From: Chrysemys picta bellii
Taxonomy: Eukaryota; Chordata; Testudines; Emydidae
Length of the DNA stretch: 64,000 nucleotides
Direction of reading: 5' to 3'
Assembly: GCF_011386835.1 (NCBI RefSeq)
Contig: NC_088795.1
Coordinates: 16,287,441 to 16,351,440 of the forward strand
Each line of letters opens with the position of its first letter. The first letter of the stretch is position 1. The notes beneath the pieces are model-generated. The model ran no database searches. It worked only from the letters and a program-made list of their open reading frames with translations, and had not been told where the DNA came from. The position numbers and the translations under genes are program-made. Shown in pieces: positions 7,818-59,342 of this stretch.

Positions 7818-8481
7818 ACAACACTCAGGGCCGGCTCTGGCTTTTTTGATGCCCTAGGCAAAAAAGCCACCCGCCGCCCACCCCCCCAGCGCAGCAGGGA
7901 GGGTGCTGAGCCCGGCTACGGGCCCGCAATCCCCGACCGGCCGGAGCGCCGGGAGCAGGGCGGAGAGCCCGGCTGGGGCTCTCCGCTGTCCCCAGCGGCC
8001 AGAGCGCCAGGAGGAGGCTGGCGAGCCCGGCAGGGGCTCTCCGCTCTCCCCAGCGGCCAGAGCGCCGGGAGCAGGCCGGAGAGCCCGCCACGGCGTTCCG
8101 CTCTCCCCAGCGGCCAGAGCGCCGGGAGCAGGCCGGAGAGCCCGCCACGGCTCTCCGCTCTCCCCGACCGGCCGGAGCGCCGGGAGCAGGGCGGAGAGCC
8201 CGCCACGGCTCTCTGCTCTCCCCGACTGGCCGGAGCGCCGGGAGCAGGGCGGAGAGCCCGCCACGGCTCTCCGCTTTCCCCGACCGGCCGGAGTGCCGGG
8301 AGCAGGGCGGCGAGCCCGGCCGGGGCCCCGCTCTCCCTGACCGGAGCACCGCAGGGAGGGCAGCGAGCCCAGTCGCGGCCCCGCTCTCGGGCCGGAGCGC
8401 CCCGCCTCGCCGCCCCCCTCCAGGTGCCGCCCCAAGCACATGCTTGTTGGGCTGGTGCCTAGAGCCGGCCCTGATAACACT
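7818..8481. mobile_element. hAT-type non-autonomous transposon with minisatellite core
   Basis: The element proper is 7826-8473 (648 bp). It begins CAGGGCCGGCTCT and ends AGAGCCGGCCCTG, a perfect 13-bp terminal inverted repeat. It is flanked by 8-bp target duplications, acaacact (7818-7825) and ataacact (8474-8481), 7 of 8 identical; 8 bp is the hAT signature. No transposase is present. The interior is a CpG-rich tandem array. The 222-codon plus-strand frame and the overlapping 208-, 204- and 145-codon frames are products of this array, not genes. Confidence 0.93.
7920..8405. repeat. About 58-bp GC-rich minisatellite inside hAT element
   Basis: The landmark 'gagcgcc' or a close variant recurs at 7944, 8002, 8060, 8117, 8175, 8233, 8291, 8344 and 8395, giving steps of 58, 58, 57, 58, 58, 58, 53 and 51. 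About eight copies of a unit of the form 'ccccgaccggccggagcgcc...gagcccgccacggctct'. Middle copies are most alike and end copies most diverged, as expected for unequal exchange. Confidence 0.92.
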
Positions 8482-24307: not shown

Positions 24308-24530
24308 AAGACAGAAATGTCTAGCAGATAAGGCATTGGACTTGAATTCAGGAGACCTGGGTTCTATTTCCAGTTCTGCCATTGATCGGCTGGGTGACCT
24401 TGGGCAAATCCCTTTATCTCTTTCTGCATGTTTCCCCTTCCAAGTCACAGTGACTGTCTCCTTGAAACTCATTGGGACTTAGAAGCCTAAGTCACTTATG
24501 TTAGTGTGCTTTGGAAATCACCCCCCCCCC
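24308..24530 (+). mobile_element. MIR/CORE-like SINE plus palindrome remnant
   Basis: Head 'gtctagcagataaggcattg' and 'gaattcaggagacctgggtt', core 'gctgggtgaccttgggcaaa'. At about 24455 the SINE stops and a half-palindrome follows ('actcattgggacttagaagc', 'ctttggaaatcacc') belonging to the 51846 MITE family. Short open frames of 61-62 codons on both strands are the SINE itself. Confidence 0.7.
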
Positions 24531-34421: not shown

Positions 34422-34641
34422 TGTAACACATATCAGAGGGGTAGACATGTTAGTCTGTATCCACAAAAACAACGAGGAGTCCAGTGGCACCTTAAAGACT
34501 AACAGATTTATGTGGGCATAAGCTTTTGTGGGTAAAAAACCCCATCTGAAGAAGTGAAGTTTTTACCCACAAAAGCTTATGCCCAAATAAATCTGTTAGT
34601 CTTTAAGTGCCATTGGACTCCTCGTTGTTTATGTAACACAT
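34422..34641 (-). mobile_element. Penelope-like element 3' end arranged as an inverted repeat
   Basis: The insertion 34432-34631 is flanked by exact 10-bp duplications tgtaacacat (34422-34431 and 34632-34641). It carries the abundant turtle repeat with 'gcataagctttt', 'gttagtct' and 'ggtgcca' words. Sense is minus: the 3' tail is 34432-34468, the direct arm 34469-34539, the spacer 34540-34559 and an inverted arm 34560-34630. The arms match over about 70 nt with a few mismatches and one indel. Assignment to Penelope-like elements rests on remembering the longer turtle repeat as containing a GIY-YIG-type endonuclease sequence; that part is not in this window. Confidence 0.7.
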
Positions 34642-44109: not shown

Positions 44110-44402
44110 AATTACTAGTTCCTGATGATCACTACAAAAGTTTTTTTTTCCCCCTTCTGATAATAGCCCACCTTACCTGATTATTCTCGTTATAGTTGGT
44201 GTGGCAACACCTATTTTTTCATGTCCTCTGTGTGTGTGTGTATATATATCTTCCTACTGTATTTTCCACTGCATGCATACGATGAAGTGGGTTTTAGCCC
44301 ATGAAAGCTTATGCTCAAATAAATTAGTTAGTCTCTAAGGTGCCACAAGTATTCCTCATTCCTTTTGCTGATACCGACTAACACGACTACCACTCTGAAA
44401 CC
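44110..44402 (+). mobile_element. Penelope-like element 3' end, non-palindromic copy
   Basis: Contains the same 3' words as the copies at 34432 and 50138, in plus sense: 'gatgaagtgggttttagccc', 'gaaagcttatgctcaaataa', 'gttagtctctaaggtgccac', 'gactaacacgactaccactc', ending at about 44402. Upstream 'gataatagcccaccttacct' and 'ggtgtggcaacacctatttt' extend it leftward as one continuous piece. No inverted arm adjoins. The assignment shares the uncertainty noted for 34422. Confidence 0.68.
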
Positions 44403-47465: not shown

Positions 47466-49738
47466 ATCCTAATCCAGGCCGATAGGTTTTTGGAAGCCAT
47501 TTAGATGCAGCCATAGGCATGAGACAGCTAGCACCTGGGGTTTAAGATGTCAGATGAGATGTTACCATCCTCATGCCTGCAGCTGCAGCACTGAGCTTTC
47601 TAGTTACACGTAAAATAGTAGTGGATGGTGGCTGTTAATTCCAGGAGGTGAACAAACTGGTCTCAGTGTTTTCCATCAAAATAGTAGCATTGTGTTTTGG
47701 ACTTCTCACAGTCATAAGCCACTTAAATCAAACTAACAGTACATTAAGGTTGTTTGAACTATTGATACTCCGTATTTCCATACTCTTCAGTTAAAAAAAA
47801 TAAAATAACTTACCTTAAAACTTAGGGGTTTCTCAATGTTTGGTATGTGTTTTTCCCACTTCAGTGCTTATTTAAGGGTCTTTATTTGCTTGCCTATAGA
47901 AAATTGATGTATTTAAAACCATTAACTCCAATTTAACTGTGGTTTTTGGGGGGGGGGGGGGGGAGGAGTATTTGTCGATATACATAGACAGTACCTGTGG
48001 GTCAAAATCAGTGTTCTTGGCTGTCCCAGTAATCTCCTCCTCAAACATGTTATTAGCCTTCGGCTCTGGAAAGCCATATGGCTAGCAAATCTGGCCAGAA
48101 GCAGACTGAATCTAATTCATAGAAAGCTGGTAAACCTGGATTTGTTGCTATGTATGGCCAAATGTTGTCTTTAGTCAGCCAAGAAAATACTAGTAGCCAA
48201 AGTATTATGGTAAAATAGAAATGATTACTGTATTTTCAGCCGACAAGCCCAGATGATCTATGGGTGGGAGAGGAAAAGCAGGGCACAGCACAACCACCTC
48301 CTCTTTAAAGCTTTATACCTATAAAGAGAAGGCCTGCATCCGATCTCATAGCAGTTTTACGTTGATGTGACTCCCTTGGCTTCGGTAGGGTTTCTCCTGA
48401 TTTACATCAAGGAGAGAGAGAAGAGTCAGGCCCAAGTTCTTTCTCTTCTTCTGCTTTTTGTAGTTTGCATTTGAGAATAAGGACAGGACTTTATCAATGC
48501 TATATAGAGACAAGACTAGTCATCATTATTATTAGTGGGGATGGGAATGGGAATTGAATTCATGGAACCTATAGGACTCAGAGATATTAATGTATTCTTT
48601 TTTTAAGGTGACAGAGATGGAGCTTTAATTGTCGCGATGTGTGATTCTGTTTTGCTTAGCTTCCTGCAAGAATGGCTTATTTTTGTTATTATCTTTTAGT
48701 TTGTAAGAGTTACTCACTTAAGAAGCTTTCAAAATATTAACTAGTCGCTGAAGGTTCTTTGAAGAAAAATATGACTGCTCGTGTAAACAATTAATGGTTG
48801 TTAAGCATGGCAGTGTATATTATGACAAACAACACATGCTACATTATGCCAGCTGGTGTAATGATGTGATAATGTCTGACTCATTAACTCTGGCACACAG
48901 TTTACGATGCCCTTCTATGACAGGATTAATTGATTCACACATACATTAAAACAAAAATAACTAAACTGAAATTCAGCTGGAAGCCTGGCTTCTCATTTGT
49001 CATAAACCCTGTTGGTGGTTAAAGCTGATGAAGGCCTCAGTGCAGAAGGAGTTGAGGTTTGCCCACTGACCTTTGTTGTGGCTAATCTGGATCAATATTC
49101 TGCAAGCAGAAAATAAGTTATATTTAAATATTGGCAATGATTTCCATAGAAGTCTCCCAACTATGGTTTTTTTTTTTGGTGATTATTACAATTATTAGGC
49201 CAAATCCTGAAGTCATTAGGCAAAACTTCCCTTGCCTTCAAAAGGAATTTTTGCCCATGCATGGACTTTAGGATCGTGCCCATTGTTTGCTAATGAAGTA
49301 ATAGCTGATTGTATCAACGTGATAAAGGAGGAGAGGATTGGTTAACAACTATGCATCAATTAATACATAGGTATTAATGTTGAACCAATGTTTCCAACAA
49401 TACATTAGAATTTAAAACTCATGCCATGAAGAATTGTTATACAGTATAAGTATAAGTAGAGCTGGTCAAACAGAGTGAACTGAGAACTGATACATATATT
49501 GTCAAATGAATTATTTGTGAATATTATTTGACCCTCTCTATGAATAAATGATCAGTAGTTCATTTAGTCTGATATTCTCTCTTTGGAGTGACCGTTGTGA
49601 TGGAGTGACTGGATGTTTCATAAGGAGTCAAAAACATACCATAATACACCTGCTGTATTTCTGCAATCCAGCTATATCATGGAGGGACATTCCTTCCTCA
49701 CCTAAGCATGTGATGCTCTAAGTTACCTCAGCCTGTGT
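47466..49738. other. Long unique stretch, no gene
   Basis: A 16-G run at 47948-47963 is the only simple repeat. The stretch 48600-48960 is AT-rich, repeat-free and full of ATTA/TTAAT words. It is a reasonable candidate for conserved non-coding DNA, not tested. No open frame above 60 codons in most of it. Confidence 0.5.
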
Positions 49739-49822
49739 CATGAGTTATGGTAACTTGTATAATTTATAGTCTAGCTAGCATTCCCTCTGGGGCCATGTAG
49801 ACCCTTTAATGCTGGGCTGGGA
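49739..49822. repeat. Short duplicated segment, copy A
   Basis: The 41 bases from 49739 are identical to 50643-50683, and the following 'ctctggggccatgtaga' is also identical. Copy A is shorter by about 12 nt in the middle. See copy B at 50641-50751. Confidence 0.85.
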
Positions 49823-50124: not shown

Positions 50125-50381
50125 GAAGGATGGAAATCGCAACAGAGGGTCCTGTGGCACCTTTGAGACTAACAGAAGTACTGGGAGCATAAGCTTTCGT
50201 GGGTAAGAACCTCACTTCTTCAGATGCAAGACATCTTGCATCTGAAGAAGTGAGGTTCTTACCCACGAAAGCTTATGCTCCCAGTACTTCTGTTAGTCTC
50301 AAAGGTGCCACAGGACCCTCTGTTGCGTTTTACAGATTCAGACTAACACGGCTACCCCTCTGATACTTGAAGGATGGAAAT
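50125..50381 (+). mobile_element. Penelope-like element 3' end as a perfect 94-bp palindrome
   Basis: The insertion 50138-50368 (231 bp) is flanked by exact 13-bp duplications gaaggatggaaat (50125-50137 and 50369-50381). Bases 50138-50231 and 50234-50327 are reverse complements over 94 of 94 positions with a 2-nt loop. A 41-nt unpaired tail (50328-50368) carries 'ttcagactaacacggctacc'. Sense is plus: inverted arm, direct arm, 3' tail. A duplication of this length points to target-primed retroposition, not hAT or Harbinger cut-and-paste. Arm identity implies a recent insertion or ongoing homogenisation. Confidence 0.9.
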
Positions 50382-50599: not shown

Positions 50600-50835
50600 C
50601 ACACTGTGGACCAGATACTTCAAGTTACTCAAGTATTACTAAATCATGAGTTATGGTAACTTGTATAATTTATAGTCTAGCTAGGGGAGCTCCTACGATT
50701 CTCTCTGGGGCCATGTAGATCCCTTAATCTTGGGCTGGACCACACAGTATTAGTATTACTCAAGTAATACTTAATCAATGGGACTAGTTACAGAGTAATG
50801 CTTTATGAGTAAAGGTTGCAGAATTAGGTCTTATG
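50600..50835. repeat. Palindromic MITE-like repeat interrupted by copy B
   Basis: The left part 'ggaccagatacttcaagtta' is mirrored by the right part 'gttgcagaattaggtc', with a central 'caatgggactagttacagag'. The element is split by a 111-bp insertion at 50641-50751. Confidence 0.6.
50641..50751. repeat. Short duplicated segment, copy B, with target duplication
   Basis: This segment repeats copy A (49739-49822) in the same orientation about 0.9 kb away. It is flanked by exact 9-bp agtattact (50632-50640 and 50752-50760), so it was inserted into the palindromic repeat. No terminal inverted repeats, no poly(A), no tRNA-like boxes. Either an uncharacterised short mobile element or a templated insertion from the nearby copy. 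Confidence 0.8.
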
Positions 50836-51582: not shown

Positions 51583-51845
51583 TTAGGGTACGTCTTCACT
51601 ACCCGCCGTATCGGCAGGTAGCAATCGATTTATTCGGGATCGATATATCACGTCTCGTTAAGACGTGATATATCGATCCCCGAATGCACTCACCGCCGAC
51701 TCCGGAACTCCACCAGAGCGAGCGGCGGTAGCGCAGTCGTCGGGGGAGCCGTGGCCATCGATCCCGCGCCGTCTGGACCCCAGGTAATTCGATCCAAGAT
51801 ACTTCGACTTCAGCTACACGAATCCCCAGTGTAGACCAGCCCTTA
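51583..51845. mobile_element. PIF/Harbinger-type MITE, 257 bp
   Basis: The element proper is 51586-51842, starting GGGTACGTCTTCACTAC and ending CAGTGTAGACCAGCCC (inverted, imperfect). The 3-bp target duplication TTA is present on both sides (51583-51585 and 51843-51845), the PIF/Harbinger signature. Inside, 51632-51655 and 51661-51685 form a 24-25-bp hairpin around a 5-nt loop, rich in CGAT words. No coding capacity. Confidence 0.87.
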
Positions 51846-58849: not shown

Positions 58850-59342
58850 CCGTATATACTCGTTCATTAGCCTGTTCGTTTATAAGCCAACCCCCCCAAG
58901 CTCGATAGGTAAAAATAGCAAAAACTGTATGACCCTTTCATAAGCCGACCCGGTATTTCAGGGGTTGGCAGTCTTTGGCTCCTGGCTCATTAGGGTAAGC
59001 TGCTCGCAGGCCTGGACGTTTTGTTTACCTGGAGCGTTCACAGGCACGGAGCCCATCAGCTCCCAGTGGCCGCGGTTCGCCGTTCCCAGCCAATGGGAGC
59101 TGCGGGAAGTGGTGCGCCACTTGGCTGGGAACGGCAAACCGCGGCCACAGGGAGCTGAAGGGCTCCATGCCTGCAGATGCTCCAGGTAAACAAAATGACA
59201 GAGTATTAGATATTCAGTTCAATGATTCCATAGAGTTTAAAATCATCAAATTTTGGTGTAGACCCGTTTATAAGCCGACCCCCACTCTTTGATGCGTCAC
59301 TTTTTTACCAAAAATATTCGGCTTATGAACGAGTATATACAG
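58850..59342. mobile_element. Composite foldback transposon
   Basis: The outer termini CCGTATATACTCGTTCATTA and its mirror at 59318-59342 form a roughly 24-bp inverted repeat with few mismatches. A second layer, 'gtttataagccaaccccccc' against 'cgtttataagccgaccccca', lies as direct internal words. From 58959 a different element starts ('caggggttggcagtctttgg', a hAT-type start). It contains the 70-bp foldback at 59023-59191 and lacks its usual right end. Target duplication of the outer element not resolved. Confidence 0.78.
59023..59191. repeat. 70-bp inverted repeat with 29-nt loop
   Basis: Bases 59023-59092 and 59122-59191 are reverse complements with roughly seven mismatches in 70. The core 'gtggccgcggttcgccgttc' is GC-rich. 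It belongs to the inner element of the composite. Confidence 0.9.

Follow-up and report, generated by a model that had tools for sequence, protein, structure and literature searches.

Palindromic insertions with a short tail at one end have their closest described counterparts among the Penelope-like elements (PLEs). In rotifer Penelope elements, inverted and direct pLTRs adjoin each other head to head, and an optional tail of 31 bp is found on one inverted pLTR; several of the described copies are surrounded by duplications of 8–10 bp, and one Pen2 subfamily is without any (PMC3846280). The inverted junctions of these elements show a palindrome or an overlap, and self-priming was inferred by the authors in 2013 (PMC3846280). 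Inverted pLTRs and short 3′ extensions are also named as peculiarities of PLEs in a curation guide (PMC8969392).

A PLE of Anolis was studied biochemically in 2024 (PMC11167929). According to that report, the purified protein, assayed in vitro, cuts both strands of the target and extends them, reverse transcription begins at internal sites, and the optional tail of 30–40 bp is the stretch separating two reverse transcriptase (RT) start sites. The commonest start is located in an AC-rich stem loop, 111–118 bp into the open reading frame (ORF), and the start site is described as being without apparent difference between the strands (PMC11167929). By word count, the main text of the same report contains "inverted" once (for a blocked DNA end) and "orientation" and "palindrom" not at all. 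A Repbase protein, Penelope-2_CPB, is on record (PMC9004415), which makes the presence of PLEs in turtles plausible.

The DNA analysed here (the window) is a stretch of 64 kb from Chrysemys picta bellii, and all coordinates refer to it. An insert of 231 bp (50138–50368, copy 1) is bounded by two exact copies of a 13 bp target-site duplication, GAAGGATGGAAAT, at 50125–50137 and 50369–50381 (both on the plus strand). The left duplication is adjoined by the outer end of an inverted arm of 94 nt (50138–50231, minus strand), which is without a tail and is followed by a centre of 2 nt, CA (50232–50233, assigned to neither strand), by the direct arm of the repeat unit (94 nt, 50234–50327, plus strand) and by a tail of 41 nt (50328–50368, plus strand). 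The two arms are exact reverse complements of each other over all 94 positions. The tail extends the right arm, has no counterpart on the left arm, and carries a CAGA-N16-TCTG motif near its end. The perfect 94 bp palindrome with a 2-nt loop and the 13 bp target duplication, both reported in the initial annotation, were thus confirmed to the base.

The palindrome of copy 1 exceeds chance expectation by far, because the runner-up exact inverted repeat in the window (loop of up to 10 nt) is only 20 bp long and the longest exact inverted repeats in five Markov simulations of the window were no more than 8–11 bp each. The runner-up is found at 51636–51680 and has a loop of 5 nt. On either side of the insert region there is also a direct repeat (49738–49820 and 50644–50738) with 77 identical columns out of 95 aligned, a single gap accounting for 12 of the 95; a further dispersed repeat and a duplication of local origin are both possible explanations.

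The repeat unit was used as a BLAST query against the window to look for further copies. Three recognisable copies were obtained in the 64 kb, two of them head-to-head palindromes; the other matches were weak (E≥0.27). When the three copies were combined into a profile, this profile necessarily returned the loci from which it was made, and beyond them the best match had an E value of 0.063. The weak unit matches, beginning at E=0.27 for BLAST and at E=0.063 for the profile, were excluded from the copy count. Copy 2 is the second palindrome and lies on the minus strand (34422–34641, including its duplications). Its 10 bp target duplication, ATGTGTTACA, is located at 34632–34641 on the side of the inverted arm and again at 34422–34431 (both minus strand). 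Between them are the inverted arm, which is without a tail and is 89 nt long if an additional base at the junction is counted (34543–34631, plus strand), the direct arm of 76 nt (34467–34542, minus strand) and, on the direct arm only, a tail of 35 nt with CAGA-N16-TCTG near its end (34432–34466, minus strand). Copy 3 consists of one arm and the tail (44256–44400, plus strand); its exact 5′ end is uncertain, and no inverted arm was found at about 44256–44400. A candidate target duplication of copy 3 (CCTACTGTATT/CCTACACTATT) was dropped, as its score was reached by 105 of 300 shuffles.

Comparison of the two palindromes revealed a common outer boundary. In the alignment, the ends of their inverted arms are no more than 2 nt apart and immediately precede the tail, which is absent from both inverted arms and present on the direct arms with lengths of 41 and 35 nt. 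The centres differ: a symmetric one in copy 1, where 2 nt separate the arms, and an asymmetric one in copy 2, whose inverted arm extends 12–14 nt past the direct arm. In copy 2, each arm accordingly holds sequence that is missing from the other, the inverted arm 12–14 nt at the centre and the direct arm the 35-nt tail. Identity between the arms of one copy is 94/94 (copy 1) and 69/72 aligned columns (copy 2); identity between copies is lower (73/88, 59/71 and 90/110). Because the arms agree far better within a copy than between copies, the simplest reading of the alignments is that copies 1 and 2 look like independent insertions that ended in the same architecture. Deletion at the centre is a common fate of palindromes, and the asymmetric centre of copy 2 could be a later deletion of this kind.

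The 3′ ends of the copies read GATACTT, CTGAT and about CTGAAA, with neither poly(A) nor a simple repeat, unlike a LINE or SINE with a poly(A) or microsatellite 3′ end. Retroposition, as proposed in the initial annotation, is well supported by the unequal ends, by target duplications that measure 13 and 10 bp and by the relatives elsewhere in the window.

The insert is non-coding. One open frame of 56 amino acids crosses it, and no homologue of this frame was returned by a protein search. Matches in sequence collections (one viral and five prokaryote records) were rejected, since only 17–21 exact bases were shared with the element; a second sequence pattern of the element gave no matches in a collection scan, and short sequence strings of the element gave none in literature text. 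In copy 3, the distance from an ATG to the end of the tail is 119 nt. The frame opened by this ATG closes after 18 codons, so that, as it stands, it is not the start of a PLE ORF.

The CAGA-N16-TCTG motif near the tail end is present in copies 1 and 2, and the 5′ half of the stem is CCGA in copy 3. Its loop is rich in A and C (12 of 16 positions in copy 1, 11–13 of 16 across the copies). In the fold predicted from the alignment, CAGA and TCTG are not paired with each other and a pairing of TGTTAGTCT with AGACTAACA is favoured instead; in copy 1 these correspond to 50291–50302 in the arm and 50337–50348 in the tail, which can pair in the predicted fold. Seven of the nine predicted pairs of this helix are unchanged in the three copies and two are broken in one copy, with no covariation.

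Copy 1 also contains a stretch that, compared by eye with the consensus, we take to be a hammerhead-like core (CTGAAGA...GAAA-GC-TTAT-GC-TC). There is an extra A after CTGANGA, and stem I is not clear. The Rfam hammerhead families gave no match for copy 1 or copy 3 at E values up to 10, and none at gathering scores in the whole window, the latter being the sole search that covered copy 2. With one arm and the tail as query, Rfam gave no matches. With the whole palindrome as query, 14 rows were obtained, none of which reached the gathering score (13 microRNA precursors, one snoRNA); they were discounted because any long hairpin gives such matches.

Three other features of the window were recorded. 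A separate imperfect palindrome at 59019–59195 (81 % over 177 columns) has TTTTGTTTACCTGGAGC at both ends; it is MITE-like and does not match the Penelope-like repeat unit. A GC-rich minisatellite with a 58 bp unit and 7.2 copies is located at 7930–8344. A tRNA-like Rfam match at 24310–24381 scored 30.1 bits, against a gathering score of 29, and was not called by ARAGORN; it is possibly the head of a SINE.

We consider it somewhat probable that the insert of copy 1 was made by a Penelope-like reverse transcriptase primed on both cut strands of the target. An enzyme with two active units would have cut the target in a staggered manner, about 13 bp apart. On one target strand, reverse transcription of a short non-coding RNA would have started at the outer (tail) site, and on the other strand about 41 nt further in. 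Both antisense cDNAs would have extended almost to the template start before being joined head to head, and gap filling would have produced the 13 bp duplication. The family would then be a non-autonomous, Penelope-like one mobilised in trans, with the repeat unit as its tandem-repeat (pLTR) part. Both the joining step at the centre and the assignment to this type of enzyme are points that we infer.

Priming on both strands would place an RT start at each outer end of the insert, with the tail at one of them and not at the other, and so predicts the boundary that was seen twice. It is favoured over a self-primed hairpin because the layout of tail and inverted arm matches that of PLEs and because the Anolis enzyme acts on both strands (PMC11167929). 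Several observations speak against it. Only two palindromic copies are present in the 64 kb window; a different start on each strand is needed in both of them, whereas no difference of this kind is apparent for the Anolis enzyme (PMC11167929); and the asymmetry at the centre of copy 2 could be explained by a later deletion. Against the PLE reading as such stand the lack of coding capacity in the insert, the early closure of the ATG frame in copy 3, the imperfect hammerhead-like core, on which Rfam is silent, and the alignment fold without CAGA/TCTG pairing. The rotifer Pen2 subfamily without duplications also shows that a target duplication does not accompany every published inverted PLE copy. 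The likeness of the target ends to the template was also considered: the last seven bases agree with the tail start at five and three positions in the two palindromes. Random sites in the window match the tail start as well in 2.4 % (5/7) and 25 % (3/7) of cases, and this likeness was dropped as too weak to serve as evidence.

If a target-primed cDNA had instead folded back at its 3′ end, copied itself and been joined as a hairpin to the other target end, the 2-nt centre and the perfect arms of copy 1 would be the expected trace. Self-priming is also the published reading of the palindromes at PLE inverted junctions (PMC3846280). A self-primed hairpin has only one RT start, and its other end should lie wherever copying stopped; the second strand, however, stops at the same tail boundary in both palindromic copies, and if stops were random along the roughly 135 nt of the unit, simple arithmetic puts the chance of agreement within 2 nt at about 5 in 135. 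The 12–14 nt by which the inverted arm of copy 2 exceeds the direct arm also argue against snap-back copying, unless they were deleted from the direct arm later. A cDNA made as a hairpin, or by a switch onto the nascent strand, had been suggested in the initial annotation. This suggestion would serve for copy 1 taken alone; it does not predict the inverted-arm end shared by both palindromes, and it sits poorly with arms in copy 2 that were not wholly copied from each other, the latter objection being weakened by the possible deletion. Two separate starts fit better, because the inverted arms share the tail boundary and the arms of copy 2 hold private sequence, and we regard the self-primed hairpin as unlikely, if still deserving of serious weight. 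The notion of a one-off hairpin accident lost ground, as a second, apparently independent copy has the same boundary.

A source element that was already palindromic, and was copied as a heritable hairpin family, would agree with the finding that two of the three copies in the window are palindromes with a common outer boundary. A heritable palindrome should not, however, leave centre junctions that differ between copies 1 and 2, arms that are closest within a copy (94/94 and 69/72, compared with 73/88 between copies) or a single-armed copy 3, and this origin is judged to be quite improbable. A DNA transposon with inverted repeats (a MITE or foldback element) would likewise be a short non-coding insert with inverted arms and a target duplication; the duplications vary in length (13 and 10 bp) where a fixed length is characteristic, the terminal repeats are not symmetric, the tail being at one end only, and a single-arm copy exists, all of which renders such an element very improbable. 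Artefacts are known to take the form of perfect palindromes with very small loops, which is the form of copy 1, but a fold-back read or chimera from assembly or library preparation is the least credible origin of all, since the duplicated stretch stops at the element boundary, without the tail and inside an exact 13 bp duplication, and the layout is repeated by a diverged second copy. As a caution, a perfect palindrome in an assembly is not necessarily an error.

The reading with priming on both target strands may tentatively be extended beyond this locus: it is conceivable, if slightly doubtful, that every inverted Penelope-type copy is the fossil of a two-ended, target-primed reaction by a dimeric enzyme that copies from both cut strands simultaneously, one active unit beginning at the tail site and the other about 35–41 nt further in. 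Were this true, the tail would mark which strand was copied from which start, and head-to-head inverted pLTRs would be explained without a self-primed hairpin. Self-priming was put forward in 2013 (PMC3846280), and in 2024 both strands were reported to be primed in vitro (PMC11167929); judging by the word count of its main text, the later report does not tie its finding to inverted copies. Clean end points are offered by a small, non-coding family whose palindrome is perfect and probably recent: a count of the inverted arms that do or do not stop at the tail boundary would by itself tell self-priming from priming on both strands.

In L1 twin priming (5′ inversion), the other target strand primes a second time, and an inverted 5′ part results. 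The inverted upstream part is not duplicated in such insertions, whereas the copies in the window hold most of the unit twice, so that twin priming would have to draw on a pair of template RNAs or on two units in a multimer. Like the element, the animal non-LTR retrozymes are small, non-coding repeats without LTRs and with duplications of more than 4 bp, and they have a hammerhead-type core (PMC7229834). The possible counterpart of that core in the element differs by its additional base and by the absence of matches to the Rfam hammerhead families.

The Poseidon PLE of Anolis carolinensis (PAc) is similar in its tail of 30–40 bp (41 and 35 nt here), perhaps in its AC-rich start region 111–118 bp into the ORF (119 nt from the ATG to the tail end in copy 3) and in priming on both target strands, which is proposed for the window element; it differs in being a coding element, studied in vitro, with a start site that does not apparently differ between the strands (PMC11167929). 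The Penelope elements of Adineta vaga (Pen2a_Av and others) have the same head-to-head inverted and direct units, a short optional tail (31 bp) that is carried by one of the inverted units, an inverted unit that is shorter than the direct one with a palindrome or overlap at the inverted junction, and short target duplications (8–10 bp in named copies) (PMC3846280). Pen2a_Av differs by an ORF of 842 codons between direct pLTRs, the window element being without an ORF and having a single direct unit, and among the rotifer Penelope families there are some in which all pLTRs are direct or the duplication is missing (PMC3846280). Of the features that define PLEs, an encoded telomerase-like RT with a GIY-YIG endonuclease is lacking in the non-coding 231 bp insert; inverted and direct units, presumed here to be pLTRs, stand head to head in two of three copies, a tail of 41 or 35 nt is present at one end, close to the 30–40 bp of PLEs, and short target duplications (13 and 10 bp) surround copies 1 and 2. 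The insert thus behaves like a PLE insertion, and the family in the window is, at best, probably a non-autonomous relative of the PLEs.
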